Part shown: one piece after another, positions 8,185 to 21,980 of the stretch | Layout: every line of letters starts with the position of its first letter | How positions within the stretch are numbered: the first letter of the stretch is position 1 | Assembly: GCA_004213515.1 (NCBI GenBank) | Contig: SHAK01000002.1 | Location: forward strand, 57,941 to 121,940 | DNA length: 64,000 bases | Source: Limisphaerales bacterium | GTDB taxonomy: Bacteria; Verrucomicrobiota; Verrucomicrobiia; Limisphaerales; UBA1096 | Direction of reading: 5' to 3' | Translations under genes and position numbers: made by a program | The notes under the pieces: model-generated | Told to the model about the DNA's origin: nothing | Databases searched by the model: none | Seen by the model: the letters and a program-made list of their open reading frames with translations, nothing else

Positions 8185-9597
8185 CTAAACTAAAAGATTT
8201 TGAACAACCTCACCATGGACATCTGTTAAGCGAAAGTCACGGCCTTGGTGCCTATAAGTAAACTTCTCATGGTTCATACCAAGGCAATGAAGAATAGTCG
8301 CATTTAGGTCATGGACATGAACTTTTTTATGTTCAGCAAAATAACCAAACTCATCAGTAGCGCCATGTACAATTCCTGGTCGAACCCCACCTCCGGCCAT
8401 CCATACGGTAAATCCATGAGGGTGATGATCACGACCAAAACCAGCCCCACTCCCTTGCGCCATGGGGGTCCTCCCAAATTCACCACCCCAAACCACTAAT
8501 GTTTCATCAAGCAAACCACGCTGTTTAAGGTCAGATATCAAGGCAGCGATAGGCCGATCAACAGCAAGGCATCGCTCAGAATGTTGCTTATAAATATCGC
8601 CATGGGAATCCCAACCTTTTTCGTATAACTGAATAAATCTAACACCACTCTCACTTAAACGCCTAGCAAGAAGGCAGTTGTTAGCAAAGGAAACCTTCCC
8701 TAGTTCAGCACCATAAGTTTCAAGCACCTGCTCTGGCTCACTAGCAATATTTGCTAACTCTGGAACTGCAACCTGCATCCGAAATGCCAACTCGTACTGT
8801 TTGATTCGTGCTATAATTGCAGGATCTTTTACTAACTCGTGACGATGACGGTTTAACGAACTCAAGAGGCTAATTTGTTCACGACGTGTTTCACGGCTAA
8901 CCCCTTCTGGATTCTTAAGGTACAACACTGGTTCTCCCTGAGTACGCAACTGCACTCCCTGATACTCTGGAGGTAAAAAACCAGCACCCCAGTAACTATC
9001 AAGTAATGGTTGAATGTTACGACCTGACGCTAAAACAATGTATGCCGGTAGATCGCTATTTTCAGTACCCAGTCCATAAGAAGCCCACGCACCAAGCGAA
9101 GGCCAACCGAATCTCACATTCCCAGTGTTCATGAATGTTACTGCAGGATCATGGTTGAAAGTATCGGAATACAATGACCGAACAACAGCTAATTCATCGG
9201 CCACACTTCCAATATGCGGGAACAACTCAGAAATCTCAGTACCACTTTGGCCATACTTTCGGAATGACCAAGAAGAACCTTTTACTTTTGGTTCCTTGGT
9301 TTTAATCATCGCGAACTCATGGTTTTTAATAATATTCGCAGGCATCGACTGTCCGTCCAGCTTTGTAAGTAAAGGCTTAGGGTCAAATGTATCAACATGC
9401 GAAGGCCCACCGGACATGAAAAGACTAATGACTCTTTTAGCACGTGGAGCAAAATGTGGTCCATACTGGTTAGTCATAGCATTCTCACGGAGCATACAAC
9501 CCAAGGCCAAACCACCAAAACCTCCAGCTGCCCGACCAAAAAACGCCCGACGTGTTTGGGCTGCAAGAAAATCAGATTGAAAATTAAAAGGTCTCAT
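8185..9597 (-). CDS. DUF1501 family protein with twin-arginine signal
   Basis: A 470-residue DUF1501 protein, a sulfatase-fold family very abundant in planctomycetes and verrucomicrobia. The N-terminus carries a Tat-like signal, TRRAFFGRAAGGFGGLALG, so export is expected. Family landmarks are FMSGGPSHVDTFDPKP, the central VRFIQLYEKGWDSHGD and the C-terminal VVWGGEFGRTPMAQGSGAGFGRDHHP. Its ATG overlaps the TGA of the upstream PSD1 gene (ATGA), the standard pairing. The biochemical role is unknown; co-occurrence with PSD1 cytochrome-like proteins suggests a periplasmic or surface role in polysaccharide processing. Confidence 0.92.
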   Translation of the reverse strand: MRPFNFQSDFLAAQTRRAFFGRAAGGFGGLALGCMLRENAMTNQYGPHFAPRAKRVISLFMSGGPSHVDTFDPKPLLTKLDGQSMPANIIKNHEFAMIKTKEPKVKGSSWSFRKYGQSGTEISELFPHIGSVADELAVVRSLYSDTFNHDPAVTFMNTGNVRFGWPSLGAWASYGLGTENSDLPAYIVLASGRNIQPLLDSYWGAGFLPPEYQGVQLRTQGEPVLYLKNPEGVSRETRREQISLLSSLNRHRHELVKDPAIIARIKQYELAFRMQVAVPELANIASEPEQVLETYGAELGKVSFANNCLLARRLSESGVRFIQLYEKGWDSHGDIYKQHSERCLAVDRPIAALISDLKQRGLLDETLVVWGGEFGRTPMAQGSGAGFGRDHHPHGFTVWMAGGGVRPGIVHGATDEFGYFAEHKKVHVHDLNATILHCLGMNHEKFTYRHQGRDFRLTDVHGEVVQNLLV

Positions 9598-12110
9598 TCG
9601 CGGTACAACCCTTCATCGAGATTGAGTAAAACTGCAGCAAAAACAGACCACTCATCTCCAACAGTCTTTGCTCTTTTTTCCCGATGTTGACTTATAAATT
9701 GAAGGGAATGTTGCAGCTCCTGAGAATCCGGCATCCTTGAAAAGCAAATAAGATAAGCCATCCTCACTTTTTCAGAGTCTCCTTCATACTTGCTCAGACG
9801 CTTTGCCAAGTCATTAGCCGCAGCATGCATAGCTGGCTCATTCATGCCTATCAAAGCCTGCTGAGGCGTGTTTGTAACTGAGCGTTTAGCCACGCATACC
9901 TGCCGCGTGGGAGCATCAAAAGTAGACATTACAGGATGAAGCATCATGCGTTTCCAATAAGTGTATATTGAACGCCGGAATTGATTTTCACCAATAGAAT
10001 TATTCCACTTAAAATTCGAATTCCCGGGTAAATCCTGACCGCGTTCCTCATAAAGTCCAGCAGGCTGCACTGGAAAAACACTTGGTCCACCAAGACGACG
10101 GGATAATTTACCGGATGATGCAAGTATTCGATCTCGAATTTGCTCCGCAGGTAGTCGCACACGCGAGAACCTAGCAAGTAATCGATTAGATGAATCAACC
10201 TTAGAGAGATCCTCTCGATGTATAGAAACTTGCCGATAGGTCGAAGAATTGACAATTAATCGATGCATTGCCTTAACATCCCAACCACTCTCAACAAAAC
10301 GGACTGCTAACCAATCCAATAATTTCGGATGCGACGGACGGTCTCCGTATAGTCCAAAATCCGCAACTGTACGCACTAAACCCTCACCAAAATGATATCG
10401 CCAGATTCTATTTACTGCTACCCTAGCAGTTAGCGGTTGATCATCAGAAAAAAGCCAACGTGCAAAATCAAGCCTGTTCGGATTACGACCTTTTGATGAA
10501 CGTATGACTGGTAGTATTTCTGGGGTGCCAGCAATAATTTTTTCTCCTTTGTTTTTGTAATCTCCACGAATAAGCAAATGAGTAACTCGTGGTTCAGTCA
10601 ACTCATCCATTACAGGCACCTCTATCGAAGGCGTATCTAATTTAGCTACTTGGCTAAATAATTGCTGATACTCAGGCAACAAAGGACTAGATAAATCTAT
10701 ACCAGCTGGATTATCGATCGCTCGATCGTATAATTTGACATTTTTTAGCTTTCCTTCAAACCGAAAAGCTGTCGCTTTAGATGAATTTTCAAAACCAGCA
10801 CCGACGGCAAGGCTTCGAGTACTTTTAGCAATAGTTTTTGGAACTGCACCCTCAACTCGAACAGCCTTATCTTCAATCCCATCAACAAAAAACCTTACTG
10901 AACGCCCAGCTTCGAAAACCATTGCCACATGATGAGGAAGTCCATCATTAACTCGCTGACTTCCATATGCAACTGCACCCTGAAACGTAGCTGCATCGGA
11001 GGAAAACCAAGCAAAAAGTTTTCCTGGGTTGGCCTTCACATCCCCTTCCCCTCCAATCCCAAAAATATAACTACGCTGCCCCGCCTTCCAATCATACTTA
11101 GAAAGAATATTACCAACCGGAGTAACTGTCTGGACCTCTGCTGTGACACTCATATCTTGATGTAAATTAAACAAATTCGGATCCTGGATCTGTTGTATTT
11201 TCTGCCACTCACCAACAATTCCTTCATGTTTTACGAGACCAAAAGGGATCTTCTCCCTGATCATATCTAAACGCTTGATTATTCGATTTTTTTTAAGTTT
11301 TGAATCTGAAGGGGTTAGCATCATCATAGGACCGTGTACTCCATAGCCGCTACCTAGGTGAGGTACATTATTGAAGATCGCAAACATCCTATAATAATCT
11401 TTCTGACTAATTGGATCGTGCTTATGGTCGTGACACTCGGCACACTCTAAAGTCAAACCAAGCCAAGTTCGGCCAGTTGATTCTAGTCGATCAACAATAC
11501 CTTTAATACGAAACTCTTCCTTACGAGGATTATTACCTTTTGCCTGCATAGCATGTCGATGAAATGCACTAGCAACTCGCTGGTTCTGAGTGGCATTAGG
11601 GACCATATCACCTGCGAGTTGATCAATTGAAAATCTATTAAACGGCATATTAGTATTGAATGCATCGATAACCCAATCGCGGTAAGGCCAAACATTTCTT
11701 GTTCGATCTGCAGCATAACCAGAAGTATCAGCGAACCTAGCAAGGTCGAACCAATCTTGTGCCTGTCTTTCCCCAAAATGAGGGGATGCCAACAAGCGAT
11801 CAACTAAAAGAGAATAAGCTTTTATTGAATCATCGCTAATAAAATCCAACACCAAATTTGGCGACGGAGGCAATCCTGTTAGATCCAATGACAATCTTCT
11901 TACAAGTGTAGCCCGATCCGCCTCCTTGGAGGGCACAATTTTCTCAGCTTCAAGTTTAGCTAAAATGAATTGATCTATTTCATTCCTTATCCAGCTGGAA
12001 TCTCGAACCTCCGTTGGTAAACTATTTTTGGGAGGAATAAATGCCCAGTGCTCCGCTTTCACCAAAACAGGCAAAGAAAGCAAAATTAAAAAATACTTTA
12101 AGCGGAACAC
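9594..12110 (-). CDS. PSD1 protein: DUF1549 + LamG-like + DUF1553
   Basis: An 838-residue exported protein. Residues 1-19 are a signal peptide, read from a GTG start. DUF1549 follows (ADRATLVRRLSLDLTGLPPSP, then ERQAQDWFDLARFADTSGY) and includes a CAECHDHKHDP motif, a CxxCH-type haem or metal site. A concanavalin/LamG-like domain sits in the middle (about 330-470; WKAGQRSYIFGIGG, HHVAMVFEAGRSVRFFVDG). DUF1553 ends the protein (LTARVAVNRIWRYHFGEGLV, STFDAPTRQVC). Unlike the second PSD1 here (60093), it has no N-terminal PSCyt1 haem domain. It is the first gene of the PSD1-DUF1501-aldolase operon. The glycan-binding middle domain fits a polysaccharide target; the enzymatic role is unknown. Confidence 0.9.
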   Translation of the reverse strand: MFRLKYFLILLSLPVLVKAEHWAFIPPKNSLPTEVRDSSWIRNEIDQFILAKLEAEKIVPSKEADRATLVRRLSLDLTGLPPSPNLVLDFISDDSIKAYSLLVDRLLASPHFGERQAQDWFDLARFADTSGYAADRTRNVWPYRDWVIDAFNTNMPFNRFSIDQLAGDMVPNATQNQRVASAFHRHAMQAKGNNPRKEEFRIKGIVDRLESTGRTWLGLTLECAECHDHKHDPISQKDYYRMFAIFNNVPHLGSGYGVHGPMMMLTPSDSKLKKNRIIKRLDMIREKIPFGLVKHEGIVGEWQKIQQIQDPNLFNLHQDMSVTAEVQTVTPVGNILSKYDWKAGQRSYIFGIGGEGDVKANPGKLFAWFSSDAATFQGAVAYGSQRVNDGLPHHVAMVFEAGRSVRFFVDGIEDKAVRVEGAVPKTIAKSTRSLAVGAGFENSSKATAFRFEGKLKNVKLYDRAIDNPAGIDLSSPLLPEYQQLFSQVAKLDTPSIEVPVMDELTEPRVTHLLIRGDYKNKGEKIIAGTPEILPVIRSSKGRNPNRLDFARWLFSDDQPLTARVAVNRIWRYHFGEGLVRTVADFGLYGDRPSHPKLLDWLAVRFVESGWDVKAMHRLIVNSSTYRQVSIHREDLSKVDSSNRLLARFSRVRLPAEQIRDRILASSGKLSRRLGGPSVFPVQPAGLYEERGQDLPGNSNFKWNNSIGENQFRRSIYTYWKRMMLHPVMSTFDAPTRQVCVAKRSVTNTPQQALIGMNEPAMHAAANDLAKRLSKYEGDSEKVRMAYLICFSRMPDSQELQHSLQFISQHREKRAKTVGDEWSVFAAVLLNLDEGLYRE

Positions 12111-13618: not shown

Positions 13619-14335
13619 TCACAACTTTAATTCTTTCATCGACCAAAGGCTAAGGTTTTTGTCCTTAAACTCTATCTCCAAACAATTCTCATTAATAACT
13701 TCAGCAGGATACGGCAGATTAAATGGTGGGAGCATCAAGTTAATAGGACGCCACTGACCAGTAACAATATCATTATTTCGTTTCACGTCTGGGAAATTAG
13801 TAGTTAATAACCATTTTATACCGGATCGATTGATATTAATAAATGCAGCTTGCACATCATCAAAAGACATGTGCACCAAACAATCCCTACAAAGAATAAC
13901 ATCAGCAGCGGGCAATGAGTCTTTTACAAGGTTTATCTTTTTAAATTCTATTCCTTCGCGAGCATATTTAGCCAGATTACGCTCCACGAGTTCGCTCACT
14001 AAATCTCCACCTATGTAATTTATTTCTGAGAGATCAACATGTTGCATCCAGTGAAAGTCTCCACATGGCAAATCAAGTAATGTCTTTACCTCAAGCTTGT
14101 GGAACATTTTTCGAAGTCTTTCACGTAACCATTTAGTTTCTTCCAAAGTTGAACCTGGACCAGAAACCGATTCGATTTCATTCCAATGATTCGTTTCATA
14201 AAAGTGCCTAAAACGATCCTCAGAATTAGTAAATCGCTTAACTAAACGCTGTCCAGAATATCGCTGAAGTAATCGATACAAAGGCCCTGCATATTTCCGC
14301 AAAGTTTGCTCGAGATTTTTTTTTAAACGATCCAC
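13619..14335 (-). CDS. Class I SAM-dependent methyltransferase
   Basis: A Rossmann-fold methyltransferase of about 238 residues. The SAM-binding motif is LLDLPCGDFHWMQHVDL, followed by YIGGDLVSELVERN and ADVILCRDCLVHMSF. The DLPCGDFxW form is typical of a family found in cell-surface polysaccharide loci. I prefer the GTG at 14335, which overlaps the permease stop as TAGTG and is preceded by AGGAAGGA at good spacing; a GTG at 14365 would add ten residues. It is the last gene of the eight-gene run and probably modifies a sugar or lipid made or exported by it. Confidence 0.8.
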   Translation of the reverse strand: MDRLKKNLEQTLRKYAGPLYRLLQRYSGQRLVKRFTNSEDRFRHFYETNHWNEIESVSGPGSTLEETKWLRERLRKMFHKLEVKTLLDLPCGDFHWMQHVDLSEINYIGGDLVSELVERNLAKYAREGIEFKKINLVKDSLPAADVILCRDCLVHMSFDDVQAAFININRSGIKWLLTTNFPDVKRNNDIVTGQWRPINLMLPPFNLPYPAEVINENCLEIEFKDKNLSLWSMKELKL

Positions 14336-15336
14336 TAATCGTATTCCTTCCTTGAAAAAATCCACATACCCAATAATAGAAAAGAAAGGAAAGCCAAAAC
14401 CAAAATAATTTGTGACGAGACAGCCCCAACAGGATCATAGGCAGGAATACTTGACTCTAAACCGAGTGACAACGACTTATCATATAGCCAACTATTAGCA
14501 TAAAATGAGACAGTGATACTCTTCACTACTCCTGGCATATTCGCGGTAAGGGTCTCGACCATTAATGCATAAGCCAACGCAAGAAATGTCGCCCGACGAA
14601 CCAACGCACTGAATAGTAAAAACAAGCTGACATAACAGGTAGTAGCAAGAAAAACTACAGGGGTATATTTATAACAAACATCAAAACCGGCTGTGCCAAT
14701 AATCAAACAAAGCGCAGCCAAACAACTCAGTGTAACTGCAAGGGTAAGCAATAAAACAGCTAAATAGATTGAGAAATATATAAGCGATCGCGGAATACTA
14801 GTACTAAGCAAGTAAACTAAAGTCTGACTAGTGCGCTCTCCGGAAATCGCGGCTGAAGCGTAACCAAGCGAAATGATCGGAAGAAGAAAACCCATGAAGA
14901 GTGGTTGGAGAATTTTGCCGGCAAGTTGTAACCCTGTGCGATCAGGCTGTATCCGTACCAACGTTTCACGGCGACTAACCTTAAAATCGTTTTCAATTAT
15001 AATTTCACTAATTACACCGCTTACTCTGGCTTTTAGTTCTCTCTTCCCCCCTCTTCTTCCTTGGACAACGCACACAACTGACTCAGCTTCGACACGGTCA
15101 CCAACTACATAGTAAGCATTAGTTTCCGGTGACAATGCTCGGTAATATGTTGTTGTCCCTCTCATCGGTGCCCGCACATAAGAATCTGAAGCCAACCAAA
15201 CAATAGTAATCGCCAAGGACAATCCCAGAAGGACAGTTATTACAATCGTTTGACGCGAAAAAAACTGACGCCTAAGTGTCAATCCAAACACCTGAAAACA
15301 GGAAGCAAAAAGAGAAAATTGAAGGGTTGTTTTCAT
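14335..15336 (-). CDS. ABC-2-type permease with inserted biotinyl/lipoyl-like domain
   Basis: A 333-residue membrane protein. TM1 lies at about 31-50, followed by an approximately 80-residue soluble insert and then five or so TM helices (about 143-166, 182-203, 207-230, 235-260, 302-325). The C-terminal helices carry the usual ABC-2 pattern (GYASAAISGERTSQTLVYLLSTSIPRS). The insert (about 52-131) closely follows the biotin carboxyl carrier domain: YVRAPMRGTTTYYRALSP, VVGDRVEAESVVCVVQ, LKARVSGVISEIIIEN and ETLVRIQP. The biotin-accepting AMKM is replaced by QGRRGGK. With the N-terminus in the cytoplasm, the insert would face the periplasm. It partners the ATPase encoded three bases upstream. 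The transported substrate is unknown. Confidence 0.82.
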   Translation of the reverse strand: MKTTLQFSLFASCFQVFGLTLRRQFFSRQTIVITVLLGLSLAITIVWLASDSYVRAPMRGTTTYYRALSPETNAYYVVGDRVEAESVVCVVQGRRGGKRELKARVSGVISEIIIENDFKVSRRETLVRIQPDRTGLQLAGKILQPLFMGFLLPIISLGYASAAISGERTSQTLVYLLSTSIPRSLIYFSIYLAVLLLTLAVTLSCLAALCLIIGTAGFDVCYKYTPVVFLATTCYVSLFLLFSALVRRATFLALAYALMVETLTANMPGVVKSITVSFYANSWLYDKSLSLGLESSIPAYDPVGAVSSQIILVLAFLSFLLLGMWIFSRKEYD

Positions 15337-15339
15337 TAG

Positions 15340-16305
15340 TTATCCTGGTTTTGATGAGCGTTCCATAAGATAATCAAAAATAGGCTCAGCCGATGTATCA
15401 GTTGCTTTTAGCCCACGAATATCAACATTCTTCGAAAGAACAAATTCAGCGAACTCTCCATAAAACCGGTTCGGATTTTGAACCTCCAAAAACAAGTCAT
15501 CTGATGTCTCGATCCTCACAGATTTTACAGAATCAAGCTCCATTAACAGTGAAGCAACTCGTCGGGGTGTCTCACACGAAACTCGAACTTTTAGTGGATA
15601 ATCGTCCAGTAAATCACGGATAGTTTCCAGCGAACCAGATGCTAATAATTTCCCTCGGCACACAAAAATTATGTGATCTGCCAACTGATCCATTTCGTTA
15701 AGGATATGACTTGAGATTAATACCGCCTTACCATCCTGAGCCAAACGAATGAATAACTCATTAAGCTCATCTCTCCCTACCGGATCAATCCCGTTTAGAG
15801 GCTCATCAAGTACTAGTAAATCAGGATCATGAATCAGCGCTTGTCCAAGCTTGATACGTTGTCGCATTCCTTTTGAATAAGTACGAATCGGCCGATGAGC
15901 CCGATCGGCCATACCTACGATATCAAGTACCGTTTCAGTACGGTGCCTAGCCTCATCTCCTTTAAATCCATGCAAACCAGCAGAGACACGCACCGCTTTA
16001 CGACCAGGCATCTCATCCCATGCTGCGTCACCGTATGGACAAAAACCAACATGAGACTTGGCCTTTGCTGACCATGCATTGTTTTCGCAAATGCGAATCC
16101 CACCGATACTGGGCTTGCTTTGTCCAGTAAGAAGCCTAAGCAGCGTAGTTTTTCCAGCTCCGTTAGGTCCGACTAAACCCGTGATGCCAGGATTAATATC
16201 TAGACTAATACCATTTAACGCCATCAAAGGTCCGAACCATTTTGATACATTCTTAACCTCAACGATGGGAGATGCGGATACAGATACTGAAGGCTCAAGA
16301 GTCAT
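15340..16305 (-). CDS. ABC transporter ATP-binding protein
   Basis: An ABC ATPase of about 321 residues. Walker A is GPNGAGKTTLL, the signature YSKGMRQRIKLGQAL, Walker B LLVLDEPLNGIDP, and the H-loop lies in LISSHILNEM. I place the start at 16305, where ATG overlaps the TGA of the upstream permease (ATGA); the open frame reaches back to 16362. The roughly 100-residue C-terminal extension after the H-loop resembles those of ABC-2 exporters. It is encoded between two permeases and probably energises the downstream one at 14335-15336. Confidence 0.93.
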   Translation of the reverse strand: MTLEPSVSVSASPIVEVKNVSKWFGPLMALNGISLDINPGITGLVGPNGAGKTTLLRLLTGQSKPSIGGIRICENNAWSAKAKSHVGFCPYGDAAWDEMPGRKAVRVSAGLHGFKGDEARHRTETVLDIVGMADRAHRPIRTYSKGMRQRIKLGQALIHDPDLLVLDEPLNGIDPVGRDELNELFIRLAQDGKAVLISSHILNEMDQLADHIIFVCRGKLLASGSLETIRDLLDDYPLKVRVSCETPRRVASLLMELDSVKSVRIETSDDLFLEVQNPNRFYGEFAEFVLSKNVDIRGLKATDTSAEPIFDYLMERSSKPG

Positions 16306-17183
16306 GATTGGTGTTGTAGATAACGAAGCCGGAAAAAAATTGCCGTTATTGAAAAGAGGCAAACAGTAAAGATCACAATAATAGCTCCATAAAACAGAGG
16401 AAGTTCCACTCCAAAAAATTTACTCCCCACAATGTAAAGATTGTTCCATAAATCAAGCAAGCGCCATGAAGATTCCTCTAAATTAACTTCTGAATCACGC
16501 AAAGTTTCAGCAAGAACACTACTTAAAATAGGCAAGAACACAAATAATCCACCCCATAAAATTACCAATGGAACCGGACGAGGCATCCAAGAGACCAATG
16601 CTAATAAAAGTAGCCCAATTGATAAAGAAAGCAAAAGACCATAACCAATAATACCGAACACGATCTGAAAGTTCTCCCTAAAATATTCAGCCATATCTCC
16701 AAGTAAACCATACTCAAAAAACAAAACTAATGCAGGTATGGTCGTTATCAATAATACTAAAAGTCCGATTGCCAACAACTTCCCTAAAGCGTAGTAAACT
16801 AAACTTATTCTGCGCGACATATAAAACATAAATCCACCTCGGGAATGGTCATTACCTGCCAAAACAGATCCAGCAAATGCCAATAAAATCATCATCACAG
16901 TGCCCTGTAGCTTCATGAAATTAAGATAAGTAGTACCGGAACCATCCAAATCTTTTAACATTGAAGTAATAAATCTCGCCATTTGTGGAAGCTCTTGTTT
17001 AAGAGTAGCCAAAAGATAAATCGCTCCAAAAGTGAAAATAAAACTCAACATCGCTACAGCAAATAATAACCAGAATAATTTGCGCCGAAAGACCAGAAGC
17101 ATAGCTGTACGCGCAATAGGCCAAATTGAAAACCATGCAAGGCTTGTTGCCATCTCCTTGGTATTATTAAGTTTCGAGCTCAT
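16302..17183 (-). CDS. ABC-2-type transporter permease
   Basis: A 293-residue protein with about six hydrophobic helices (FWLLFAVAMLSFIFTFGAIYLLA first, LFYGAIIVIFTVCLFSITAIFF last), typical of an ABC-2 export permease. SVLAGNDHSRGGFMFYMSRRIS after the second TM is the usual coupling-helix region. ATGA overlaps link it to the ATPase genes on both sides. Unlike the other permease of this cluster, it has no inserted soluble domain. It probably pairs with the ATPase at 17180-18169. Confidence 0.85.
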   Translation of the reverse strand: MSSKLNNTKEMATSLAWFSIWPIARTAMLLVFRRKLFWLLFAVAMLSFIFTFGAIYLLATLKQELPQMARFITSMLKDLDGSGTTYLNFMKLQGTVMMILLAFAGSVLAGNDHSRGGFMFYMSRRISLVYYALGKLLAIGLLVLLITTIPALVLFFEYGLLGDMAEYFRENFQIVFGIIGYGLLLSLSIGLLLLALVSWMPRPVPLVILWGGLFVFLPILSSVLAETLRDSEVNLEESSWRLLDLWNNLYIVGSKFFGVELPLFYGAIIVIFTVCLFSITAIFFRLRYLQHQS

Positions 17184-18169
17184 GAATTCACCTCGCTTAC
17201 CTCAGGCTTTTTTAAGCTAATCACAGGCGGCAAATTTTTTTTATATCCGACCACTCTTTGATAAACAGTTCGTAAGTCTATTTCTTCAGGCTCAAGGCCA
17301 ATAAGTGTTACATGTGCTTCTTTGGCTAATTTAAAAAACTGTTGCTTTGACCACGCATCCGTAACAACTACACGGGCTTGGCCAAACTCTTCACTAAGTG
17401 ACACCTCTGCACCAGATTGTTTGAGAGCAGCAAGATACACGTCATTGCTACTACTATTTTTGTTTTTCCAACGAATCAAAAAAGTATTCAATTGACTCTC
17501 TAGCATTAAATCAAGCGCACCAGAAGCAGCAATTTTACCTTTCTCCATTATAATTGCATGATTGCAAACATGTTCAATGTCTCCAAGCAAATGAGTTGAG
17601 AAAAGCAACGATTTACCTGGTCGTTGAGCAAGCGACTTCAAAAGAGCAAGCATTGCCGCCCGCCCATCGGGATCAAGTCCCGAAGTCGGTTCATCTAGCA
17701 AAATTAAATCAGGATCATGCACTAGCGTAGCAGCTAGTTTAATGCGCTGTATCATGCCAGCTGAATAATTTTCGAGTCGCCGATATCTCGCCTCATCAAG
17801 ACCCAACTGTGATAATAACTCATGAGCTCGTCGCAACGCAATCTTACGCGACATACCATTCAACTCTCCTGAAAGCCCCACATACTCAATCCCATTCAAT
17901 CCTGGTATAATCCCCTCTCGTTCAGGCATATAACCAATCCGCCCTCGCAAACCAACACTGTGCTGAGATATATCAGATCCAAAAACCTTCACAGTTCCAT
18001 TAGTATGTTTAAGAAGCCCAAGTAAAATCTTTATCAAGGTTGATTTGCCAGCGCCATTCTGGCCAACCAGTCCGATAGACCCTTGATCGACCGATAATGA
18101 GACCTCGTTCAGCGCGAATATGGAGCCGTATCGATGAACAAGGGAATCAATTTCAAATAAGTGGCTCAC
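17180..18169 (-). CDS. ABC transporter ATP-binding protein
   Basis: A 329-residue ABC ATPase. Walker A is GQNGAGKSTLIKIL, the signature ENYSAGMIQRIKLAATL, Walker B LILLDEPTSGLDP, and the switch His lies in LLFSTHLLGDIEH. It starts with GTG and has a C-terminal regulatory-type extension (about 220-329). It follows the glycosyltransferase by about 40 bases and overlaps its permease by ATGA. The two ATPases of the cluster are only distantly similar, so two separate exporters, or one heteromeric exporter, are both possible. Confidence 0.92.
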   Translation of the reverse strand: MSHLFEIDSLVHRYGSIFALNEVSLSVDQGSIGLVGQNGAGKSTLIKILLGLLKHTNGTVKVFGSDISQHSVGLRGRIGYMPEREGIIPGLNGIEYVGLSGELNGMSRKIALRRAHELLSQLGLDEARYRRLENYSAGMIQRIKLAATLVHDPDLILLDEPTSGLDPDGRAAMLALLKSLAQRPGKSLLFSTHLLGDIEHVCNHAIIMEKGKIAASGALDLMLESQLNTFLIRWKNKNSSSNDVYLAALKQSGAEVSLSEEFGQARVVVTDAWSKQQFFKLAKEAHVTLIGLEPEEIDLRTVYQRVVGYKKNLPPVISLKKPEVSEVNS

Positions 18170-18208
18170 AGAATTAATTTTATTAAAAAACTGGAAGAAA
18201 AGTTATAT

Positions 18209-19318
18209 TTAAATTTTATCACTCGCCAAGTTCTCCAACCAGTTGCACGTCAAAGGCAATACTTTTTTCCAAAGAAATTCATGTGACCGGGACCAAGCAT
18301 TTTCCCGTAGCCTTTGGTATTTTACAGGATCAGCAGCCAAATTCATCACTTCTGCTGCTAAGCTATTAGGTGTTTCTTCCTTACAAACTAAACCGGTTAC
18401 ACCATGGACAGTTGAATCCACTAAACCACCAACCGGATAAACCACAGCAGGCGTACCCATAGCATTAGCTTCAATTACGTTTAAACCCCAACCCTCGCGC
18501 ACAGATGTATGAAGTAGTAAATGTGCGTTTTGCAACTCGATATTTTTATCCTTGTCATCGAGATTATCCTTAAATTGCACCATGCCTACCTGGCCAAGTG
18601 ATTTAACCAAGCGCTCAAGCAGGCCACGTTCCCATCCAGAGCCAACCACAGTAAGTTCAGCAGAACATCCACTGTTGTTAAGTAATGCGAGCACGCGAAT
18701 CGCATCACTTACCCTTTTATTGGGGGCAAGCCGTGACAAGACAACTAATTTTAATGGTTCAACAAAACTCTTTGATGGTAGATCTGATAATGGCTCAGTA
18801 TCAGTCCCATTTGGCCACACCAGTACATCAACTACACCTTCTTGCATTAACTGCAATCTCGTCGATTCTGATACAGTCCAAAATGGAACATCACAATAGA
18901 ACTGGTGAATCAATTTTTCCTGAAACTGGCCAATCGAGCTTATCGGCCAACGATAAAAAGACTCCCAAACAGGACCAAGAACTTCATGTATATATGCCAC
19001 ATATTTAGTTCTCGACCACCACTGAGCAAACCACGGGATACCATGATGCTGATCAATCACCAAATCAAAAGGACCATATTTCCGATTACAAAAAAAAGCA
19101 TGAAAAATGGATGTGCCCGGCCCTCCACCGCGAACAATTTTTATACCTTCAATTTCCGTTTCCGGTTCAGCGCCCTCGAAAGCATTCGCAAACCAAACCA
19201 CTTTGTGCCCCCTCCGAATTAGCTCCACCATATGCTTCAACGTTACACGCTCGGCACCACCGGCTAGAGGATTCTCAGGATCACGCCAGTTGAGCATCAA
19301 AAAACTGCATGGACTCAT
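18209..19318 (-). CDS. Glycosyltransferase family 4 (GT-B fold)
   Basis: A GT4-like glycosyltransferase of about 369 residues. The N-terminal domain begins MSPCSFLMLNWRDPENPLAGGAERV, with the GGAE motif of the acceptor side. The C-terminal donor domain has LVVLSRLAPNKR, LLLHTSVREGWGLNVIEANAMGTPAV and PVGGLVDSTVHGVTGL, the EGWGLxxxEAxAxGTP block that binds the nucleotide sugar. I place the start at the ATG at 19318, which overlaps the TAA of the upstream gene (TAATG). It lies between a methyltransferase and an ABC exporter, so it probably builds a surface glycan that the exporter handles. The sugar is unknown. Confidence 0.9.
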   Translation of the reverse strand: MSPCSFLMLNWRDPENPLAGGAERVTLKHMVELIRRGHKVVWFANAFEGAEPETEIEGIKIVRGGGPGTSIFHAFFCNRKYGPFDLVIDQHHGIPWFAQWWSRTKYVAYIHEVLGPVWESFYRWPISSIGQFQEKLIHQFYCDVPFWTVSESTRLQLMQEGVVDVLVWPNGTDTEPLSDLPSKSFVEPLKLVVLSRLAPNKRVSDAIRVLALLNNSGCSAELTVVGSGWERGLLERLVKSLGQVGMVQFKDNLDDKDKNIELQNAHLLLHTSVREGWGLNVIEANAMGTPAVVYPVGGLVDSTVHGVTGLVCKEETPNSLAAEVMNLAADPVKYQRLRENAWSRSHEFLWKKVLPLTCNWLENLASDKI

Positions 19319-20043
19319 TATGAAGCACCTCCAAATTCCGCAATCATGATAGCATTTGCATATGGAAAAGGACTTCCATATCGACAAGCTAAAGCCTTCT
19401 CCATAGTAGTAGTCTCCCACTTTAGAGGCCCTATGCGACAGATGAAAAATGATCGAATACTTTTAAGTGTGCCTCCTGAAATTAAAAGGTCAAGTGATGG
19501 ATTATAGCCAATTGGCAAAGTTAAAACCAACCGACCATTCTCAGCCAATAACTTCCTGCTAGCATCAATTGCATGAAGTATTTTCACACCACTGTCATCG
19601 TCCATGTCATCATCAAAGCCAATATGCTCAAACGTCGAAATAGATACTATCAATTCGAATTTTTCAGTTGCGACAAAGTTCAAAATATCCTCGTTAATAA
19701 TGCCCTTTCCTCGCTCAAATTTATCAAGAACAGTGTGATTCACATCACCATAATGTGACAAAACATTCCCAATTTCTAAAACACCTTTAGACTCATAATG
19801 GCTCAGATAATCATTAATTATAGGGATTTCAACTGATCGCTCATTTGCCCAAGTCATATTATACGCATGATAAAAAAGTGAAATTAAACGATCATCGAAA
19901 GTAAATTCAGACTTGTCTAAACGCGAAATAATAAACGGGGCAAAAATGCAACGAATTGGTTTCAAGAAAAGCTCGCATATCCCAAAACGACGAACGAACC
20001 AGATCACCTTAGCAAAACCACTATTATAAAGATGCGAAGCCAT
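19318..20043 (-). CDS. Probable SAM-dependent methyltransferase-like protein
   Basis: A protein of about 241 residues. The SAM-type core is GVLEIGNVLSHYGDVNHTVLDKFE followed by ELIVSISTFEHIGFDDD and LLAENGRLVLTLPIG, matching motifs I, IV and post-motif helices of class I methyltransferases. Motif I (EIGNVLSHY) is unusual, lacking the GxGxG pattern. An N-terminal stretch of about 90 residues with a hydrophobic segment (CIFAPFIISRL) may contact the membrane. The start is the ATG at 20043, two bases after the dehydratase stop; an in-frame TTG at 20049 would overlap that stop as TTGA. A role in surface glycan modification is inferred from the GT next door. Confidence 0.62.
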   Translation of the reverse strand: MASHLYNSGFAKVIWFVRRFGICELFLKPIRCIFAPFIISRLDKSEFTFDDRLISLFYHAYNMTWANERSVEIPIINDYLSHYESKGVLEIGNVLSHYGDVNHTVLDKFERGKGIINEDILNFVATEKFELIVSISTFEHIGFDDDMDDDSGVKILHAIDASRKLLAENGRLVLTLPIGYNPSLDLLISGGTLKSIRSFFICRIGPLKWETTTMEKALACRYGSPFPYANAIMIAEFGGAS

Positions 20044-20045
20044 AC

Positions 20046-21980
20046 TCAACTCGATCTCAATCGCTCAACAATCTCTTCGACATTAAAAACACATCCCCCC
20101 CAAGTGCCTCCACCAACTCCCTGCAATGCAGCCCAAAGCTTAGTATCATCCGGCAATTCTGGATGAGCGGAAATATCCTCTCGAATTTCACGTTTAGCTA
20201 ATCTCTTTGCACCTTCTTCCACATCAAATCGATCCTTACCCTCGCCCACAAAATTAACCAAGCCTTCCAGTTGTTTTATATTAATTTCTATTGAGATAAT
20301 ATCGCCATTTTTCAATTTACCAATTGGCCCACCAGCTAAACCTTCTGGCCCAACGTGCCCAATACAAGCCCCAGTGGAAACACCAGAAAACCGAGCATCA
20401 GTTACTAATGCTACATTTTTGCCAAATGGAAGGAATTTAAGTGCAGAAGTTAATTGATAAGTTTCTTCCATACCAGTCCCTACTGGCCCACAACCAGTGA
20501 CTACCATAACATCACCAGCCTCAATCTCTTTTTGCTTTATCGCGGCTATAGCAGCTTTCTCACTCGTGAAAACCTTAGCCGGCCCTTCGTGAGAATATAT
20601 ACCATTCTCATTAATAAGGCTCGGATCGATCGCTGTACTTTTAATTACAGATCCATCAGGCGCTATATTCCCAGCTGGAAACATAACTGTGCTAGTCAAC
20701 CCCCGCTCACGAGCACGCTTCGGTGGAAGAATTACATTATCAGGATCAACATTATCCTGTTGTTTCAATATTTCGCGAAAACGCAGCCTCCTTTCAGACT
20801 GCTCCCATAAGTTCAATTCTTCGTCAAGTGTAAGACCAGTAACACTAAGCTGAGTTGTATCAATAAGATTCATTTCCCTTAAGTGAAGCATCACCTCTGG
20901 CACCCCTCCGGCAAGATACACTCTTACGGTTGAATGATCACTCGGCCCATTGGGCAAAACATCCACAATACGAGGGACAGATTTATTAATATCAATCCAA
21001 TCCTCAACTTTAGGTCTTTCAATTCCAGCAGAATAAGCAATGGCAGGTATGTGAAGAAGTAAGTTTGTCGAACCACCAAAGGCTGCATGCAAAGCCATGC
21101 CATTGCGTAAAGAAGCTGGCGTTAAAACGTCTTTTAGAGAAAGTCCATTTTGCCGCATCGCGACCAATGAATCGGCTGAACGATTAGCAATATCTAACCA
21201 CACCGGTTGACCAGATGGAGCCAAAGCTGAATGAGGCACAGACATTCCCATGGCTTCTGCCACAACTTGAGACGTCGCAGCCGTTCCCAAAAACTGACAG
21301 CCTCCTCCTGGTGATGCACAAGCCTTACATCCCAATTCATTGGCCTCATCAAGAGACAATAGACTATGAGAAAATCTCGCGCCTATTGTCTGAACAGTTC
21401 CTGCATCCTCACCTTTTTCAGGAGGCAACGATACTCCCCCCGGCACGATAATACCTGGCAAATCACTCAAGCCAGCCAAAGCCATCATCATTGCTGGCAA
21501 TCCCTTATCGCAGGTAGCCACTCCTAGCACACCTTTTCGGGTAGGTAGCGATCTAGCTAAGCGTCGAAAAACTTGAGCAGCATCATTCCGATACGGAAGA
21601 CTATCAAACATACCAGTCGTACCCTGAGTACGCCCATCACAAGGATCAGAACAATAAGCAGCAAAAGGGATTCCTCCTAATTGTTTTAGCCTCTCGGAGG
21701 CCTCTCTAGCCTGCAATGATATCTCCCAATGGCCAGTATGAAAACCCAGTGCTATTGGATTCCCGACATCATCTCTCATCCCTCCCTGTGTGCTTAAAAC
21801 TAAATAGTGATCACGTCCCAATTCGGCTGGATTCCAGCCCATACCAGCGCTCTGTGTCATCCCAAAGATGTCACCACTGGGTTTACTACGCATATCATTG
21901 GCAGATAGTGGTAGCTTACCAACTGGACCAGGGGCCTTAGTTTGAATGGAATAAATGTCCTGTGATACTTCTTTGCTCAC
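20046..21980 (-). CDS. YjhG/YagF-type sugar-acid dehydratase (IlvD/Edd family)
   Basis: A 644-residue dehydratase of the IlvD/Edd superfamily, of the YjhG/YagF type that turns D-xylonate into 2-keto-3-deoxy-xylonate. Fe-S ligands are likely the cysteines of CDKGLPAMM and [36 protein letters not shown] and [21 protein letters not shown] are family motifs. The length (about 650) fits YjhG rather than IlvD (about 570). The start is a GTG. It is the first gene of a run that continues with methyltransferase and glycosyltransferase genes, odd company for a catabolic enzyme. It could act on xylonate or a related aldonic acid; no kinase or aldolase for the product lies next to it. Confidence 0.88.

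Follow-up and report, generated by a model that had tools for sequence, protein, structure and literature searches.

A BCCP-type biotinyl domain without its biotin lysine is inserted in a NosY-type ABC permease of a Limisphaerales bacterium

We report a biotinyl domain of the type found in AccB, the biotin carboxyl carrier protein (BCCP), within the permease of an ABC transporter of a Limisphaerales bacterium (contig SHAK01000002.1, assembly GCA_004213515.1). The window, that is, the whole stretch of DNA analysed, is 64,000 nucleotides long. The open reading frame of this ABC-2 (NosY-type) permease (14335..15336, on the reverse strand, as are the parts of this gene and the single neighbouring genes located below) encodes 333 amino acids, and the insert occupies residues 50-131 (82 residues, 14944..15189). 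Our analysis confirmed that this is a real and unusual insertion of a BCCP domain in an ABC-2 permease, and that the lysine to which biotin would be attached has been lost. The donor is likely, though not proven, to have been an accB gene of the same lineage. Searches of open-licence PMC papers, judged from their listings, brought up no described case of a BCCP- or lipoyl-type insert in an ABC permease.

A BCCP domain in the first loop of an ABC-2 permease

In a Pfam scan the permease matches ABC2_membrane_2 (PF12679) with 40.6 bits against a cut-off of 27.2, and its predicted model matches the NosY-like transmembrane fold. The insert lies between transmembrane helix 1 (TM1, residues 28-50, 15187..15255; AlphaFold helix H28-50, with a hydropathy peak at 25-54) and TM2 (residues 135-169, 14830..14934; AlphaFold helix H135-169), as an earlier note made from the sequence alone had proposed. 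TM2 ends in a segment conserved among relatives, GERTSQTLVYLL, which we take to face the ATPase. The note had also placed the loop in the periplasm, and this stands as a prediction from the NosY fold match, given an orientation in which we assume the TM1-TM2 loop to lie outside.

The insert itself is readily recognised. PF00364 (Biotin_lipoyl) covers residues 54-129 with 30.7 bits against a cut-off of 22.1 and spans profile positions 3-73 of 73, so the BCCP-like domain that the note had delimited at residues 52-131 (14944-15183) was correctly located. This profile matches all seven insert-bearing members scanned (E <= 0.01, best E 2.3e-12), and the insert is one of only five PF00364 places in a six-frame search of the whole genome. 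The top NCBIfam match is TIGR00531, the BCCP model, with 40.3 bits over model positions 80-155 (of 156), well short of the equivalog cut-off, 115.2; nothing in the insert corresponds to the N-terminal part of AccB. What the insert covers, almost exactly, is the AccB C-terminal domain, from DPEIKSPM to the last residues, RVRPA. Among solved structures, those of E. coli BCCP come closest to it (E 3e-6 with the single sequence, 3.9e-9 with a profile), and a comparison of the insert profile with the AccB profile of the genus gave 99.3% probability and E 7.6e-21, from small alignments of 7 and 8 rows.

The AccB-type "thumb" is also recognisable. It corresponds to residues 67-74 (15115..15138), where ALSPETNA aligns with APSPESDD of AccB; its exact limits in the insert are our assumption. 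AccB FYRAPSPES aligns with YYRALSPET in the window insert and with FYRALSPES in the related protein P0006, so the segment is kept, as judged by sequence only. In PMC11926652 the thumb is described as shared by bacterial and plant BCCP.

The biotin hairpin and the charge of the insert are rewritten

The earlier note had observed that QGRRGGK stands in place of the AMKM acceptor motif, and the alignment bears this out: AMK is present in 52/52 AccB and in none of the eight inserts. (The AccB set omits the fragments L054-L056, the duplicates L024 and L057, and matches without an issued locus; two of the eight insert rows, P0003 and G015, are identical.) Arginine fills the biotin-lysine column in all eight inserts (R95 in the window insert). 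The rewritten hairpin spans residues 92-100 (15037..15063) and reads QGRRGGKRE where AccB has EAMKVMNE; the corresponding stretch of P0006 is EGRRGRNE. Half (15/30) of the columns shared by at least 90% of AccB keep their residue in the insert majority, and of the 15 that changed, seven are in the hairpin, five are hydrophobic or aromatic swaps, and three are E104R, G123R and Q124E. The net charge is reversed, from -5 to -7 in all 15 AccB of the genus to +3 to +5 in all eight inserts. Searching proteins with the P0006 insert for inserts that retain the lysine returned P0006 alone (18 candidates), and searching with the window insert returned five proteins among 20 candidates; both searches had a narrow reach.

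Distribution and origin of the insert

Among 100 related proteins, six carry the domain (P0001-P0006, 330-333 amino acids); the short relatives lack it. When the window protein is aligned with 55 of these relatives, loop 1, counted after W47, has 83-86 residues in seven rows and 5-14 in 48. The one distant remaining row, P0100, has a loop 1 of 75 residues of unrelated sequence, and because different content occupies the same place, the TM1-TM2 loop may be an insertion hot spot. An assembly artefact was considered and ruled out, as the insert recurs in genome G015 (locus L036) and in the clusters P0001-P0006, the first of which holds 236 member sequences.

Within the genus of the window, 12 of 21 genomes encode the permease, and two of these 12 (G000 and G015) have the insert; a thirteenth, G014, has a permease fragment at a contig end (residues 280-333) and was not counted. 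The same 12 genomes are those that match the permease at E 1e-25 among 320 genomes of the order. No permease match was found on plasmids; the phage collection was not searched. A permease tree built without the insert, and omitting nine of the 100 proteins (P0088-P0090, P0092-P0095, P0099 and P0100), placed the seven insert-bearing and ten short forms in one clade (support 97/82). This tree disfavours the converse history, in which short forms would have lost the domain.

The window insert is 46.2% identical to the AccB of its own genome. The P0006 insert reaches 57.5% identity to an AccB of the genus, at most 51.2% to the eight AccB of family f2, and at most 48.8% to 29 others of the phylum. 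A search of the order with the insert alone matched 284/320 genomes at E 1e-5, ranking the two 334-residue frames (G000 and G015) first, then 16 matches of the genus of the window, then the rest. The others, among those read in a shortened list of matches, sit in frames of 88-225 residues, a length to be expected for AccB, with the exception of a 629-residue frame (L030) that is an AccB with an extended open frame. The likely donor, accB, is still present in the same genome.

Selection on the insert

For the two inserts with DNA, the ratio of nonsynonymous to synonymous substitution rates (dN/dS) is 0.137 in the insert and 0.168 in the rest of the gene. At the protein level, identity in the insert is at least as high as in the rest of the gene in 11/15 pairs that do not involve P0006. 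These values indicate that the insert is under purifying selection, and it is likely that selection has kept it for a new role on the outer side of the membrane.

Gene neighbourhood

Directly upstream of the permease gene lies that of an ABC ATPase (15340..16362; PF00005, 90.1 bits), its likely partner, which adjoins the permease in 10/10 of the named loci compared, one with the insert and nine without. Next come a second permease-like membrane protein (16302..17183), which has a relative in 10/10 loci, and, by gene order, a second ABC ATPase (17180..18169; PF00005, 101.1 bits). Neither Pfam nor NCBIfam has a family that scores above cut-off for the second permease-like protein, although its place in the cluster and its hydrophobic stretches point to an ABC-2 permease. 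On the other side, a putative S-adenosylmethionine methyltransferase (13619..14365), for which all Pfam matches are below cut-off, overlaps the permease gene. In one relative, P0099, the C-terminal half of a short permease continues into the methyltransferase that follows it, in a single open reading frame of 343 amino acids; this looks like the product of a frameshift, or of a fusion of the two genes, at their overlap.

The order second permease, ATPase, permease is kept in 10/10 loci. The methyltransferase follows the permease in 9/10, the tenth locus ending at the permease, and CotH follows the methyltransferase in 7/10; two loci end before this point, and in locus L039 CotH was not found although the DNA continues. 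The seven cluster proteins scanned were ATPases, permeases, a methyltransferase-like protein, a GT4 glycosyltransferase and CotH. Over 13619-21980 the window holds two ATPase-permease pairs, the GT4 glycosyltransferase and two putative methyltransferases, and because this order is largely conserved across the genus, it suggests that the cluster proteins share a substrate. A gene beyond the methyltransferases of this cluster is presumably IlvD-like. Elsewhere in the window, at 8185-12110, stand what we take to be DUF1501-like and PSD1/cytochrome-type proteins in tandem, as is often the case in Planctomycetes and Verrucomicrobia.

Possible roles of the insert

We consider it reasonably probable that a copy of the biotinyl domain of an own-lineage AccB, now lacking its lysine, serves this NosY-type permease as a lid or docking module, rigid and without catalytic function, on the face predicted to be periplasmic. 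The role of the insert is most likely structural or binding, because the lysine is lost, the place is predicted to be periplasmic and dN/dS is low. How might it have come about? A single in-frame insertion would have taken the place of a linker some 10 residues long. The insert has kept half of the AccB positions that are strongly conserved, together with the thumb segment, while the biotin hairpin became a basic Gly-Arg-Arg tip and the acidic make-up became basic. The rewritten hairpin would block biotinylation ahead of membrane insertion. NosY-fold transporters work as dimers, so two insert domains, one per subunit, would stand above the outer opening of the permease dimer, and their basic surface would suit an anionic partner such as lipid head groups, a glycan or a periplasmic protein. 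The complete scenario, in which a whole AccB domain was grafted in, lost its lysine, exchanged its acidic charge for a basic one and became established as an integral lid or docking adaptor of an ABC exporter in a narrow lineage that retained the parent accB, asks for more, and we advance it only tentatively. A periplasmic BCCP arrangement is feasible, since Sec exports the E. coli BCCP domain, with or without biotin, when YebF or MBP carries it at its end (PMC3418276).

A number of results weigh against this reading. Because the exported E. coli domain tolerates biotin (PMC3418276), loss of the lysine is, by this analogy, not strictly required for export. Loop 1 has 15 lysines and arginines, a count that would not by itself mark it as outside. 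At residue 123, the glycine of 52/52 AccB is arginine in all eight inserts. The dN/dS values come from one sequence pair, with bootstrap ranges of the proportions of nonsynonymous to synonymous differences (pN/pS) of 0.07-0.33 for the insert and 0.17-0.32 for the rest, and in 6/6 pairs with P0006 conservation of the insert falls below that of the rest of the protein (58-65% against 73-75%). In the AccB tree the inserts group with the AccB of the genus at weak support (77/56), and approximately unbiased tests do not reject an origin within family f2 (p 0.18) or among the 29 other AccB (p 0.34); it is because of this weak tree and these alternative placements that the own-lineage accB is the likely and not the proven donor. 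The unity of the insert-bearing permeases is likewise poorly supported in the permease tree (26/16), and we infer a single origin for them mainly because they share the position of the insert and its hairpin.

Structure prediction belongs with these points. The insert has a predicted local distance difference test score (pLDDT) of about 30 in the full-length AlphaFold model (56 rows), and a mean of 53.6 with a predicted TM-score of 0.41 when modelled alone (8 rows). No AccB relative for folding the insert was found among 226 stretches of viral_contigs. The insert-alone model is all-beta and of low confidence; Foldseek ranked E. coli BCCP (1bdo) at its top, but at E 0.93, and neither the full-length nor the insert model had a PDB match at E <= 0.001. 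VIA-align Z scores for the insert were at most 3.5 (1bdo 2.7), in a list that mixes lipoyl-like with unrelated chains and from which absence was given no weight. Of the two checks set beforehand for the note's domain, the profile comparison came out in its favour, and the structure prediction neither confirmed nor contradicted it.

The alternatives differ in what they make of the same observations. The insert could be a tolerated passenger: a chance arrival in a loop that permits insertions, conserved for no other reason than that it must fold without disturbing the permease. Loop 1 does accept other content, such as the unrelated 75 residues of P0100, the family does without the insert in ten of the 12 genus genomes that have the permease, and the insert has no known partner. 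We nevertheless think this unlikely, though by no means negligible: a domain with no function of its own fits poorly with a dN/dS not above that of the rest of the gene, and with a charge reversal and Gly-Arg-Arg tip found in 8/8 inserts, down to P0006 with its 58-65% insert identity. At the other extreme, the insert might still be a carrier, lipoylated, biotinylated or otherwise modified at another hairpin lysine, K98. Seven of the eight inserts have lysine in that column, but P0006 has arginine, the biotin-lysine column is arginine throughout and the surrounding motif is gone, and we give this idea hardly any credence.

Two further readings recruit known uses of related domains. Barrel-sandwich domains are building blocks of HlyD-type adaptors, and the insert is predicted to be periplasmic; the note had suggested that it may serve as a built-in adaptor. 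In such a reading the insert would dock, in the manner of membrane fusion proteins, on a partner channel in the periplasm or outer membrane. This remains an analogy, weakened because the insert is AccB-like, with a thumb and with BCCP as its best matches. Its 82 residues align end to end with BCCP and leave no counterpart for the helical hairpin of HlyD adaptors. No HlyD-family model is among the six Pfam matches listed at E <= 1 (HMMER filters drop most above E 0.1), and no adaptor or outer-membrane channel is among the seven cluster proteins scanned, the genome not having been searched for such a channel. We therefore regard a true HlyD-type adaptor as improbable. Slightly more remote still is a lysine-less BCCP copy that binds acetyl-CoA carboxylase and tethers or controls it at the membrane. 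Plant BADC proteins, which are BCCP relatives without the biotinylation motif, act in carboxylase assembly or, as others have proposed, in its inhibition (PMC11926652), and the insert does keep the thumb segment. A carboxylase-binding role misfits a loop that the fold match and the orientation we assume put outside, and the insert has a reversed charge and no N-terminal part of AccB.

Comparison with known systems and implications

The insert resembles the AccB/BCCP biotinyl domain (PF00364; TIGR00531; PDB 1bdo) from end to end, including the thumb and the C-terminal strand, and differs in the missing biotin lysine, the GRRG hairpin, the reversed charge, the absent N-terminal part and its place inside a membrane protein. 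Compared with NosY/ABC2_membrane_2 permeases (PF12679; PDB 7o0z), the permease has an 82-residue domain where 48/56 rows have a short loop 1; no nos-type gene (nosD or nosZ) is among the seven cluster proteins scanned. Large outer domains in an ABC-2-type half are also seen in ABCA1 and ABCA4, as extracellular domain 1, and range 3-846 of an ABCA1 chain aligned to the transmembrane bundle of the predicted permease model. The ABCA1 outer domain likewise lies between TM1 and TM2; it is far larger and of another kind. The barrel-sandwich domains of HlyD/MacA-type adaptors would share the general fold class and stand in the periplasm beside a transporter, in separate proteins with a helical hairpin, whereas the insert is of a different family and inside the permease. 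Plant BADC proteins likewise lack the biotinylation motif and have been put to non-catalytic use (PMC11926652); they are separate plastid proteins that bind carboxylase subunits, and no membrane transporter contains them.

An outer domain of AccB descent would be new for a NosY-type permease, and the function given to it above is a proposal. The insert shows that the TM1-TM2 loop of such a permease can accept a whole domain. When a domain has been inserted into a membrane protein, the case usually comes to light only long after the insertion. Here one can compare relatives free of the insert, an insert that is more AccB-like (P0006) and the gene that likely served as donor, in a locus with unchanged local gene order; the natural insert can also be set beside the engineered BCCP fusions of export studies. 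This makes it testable how a cytoplasmic metabolic domain turns into an external part of a transporter, and which changes that requires, such as the loss of the modified lysine and the reversal of charge.
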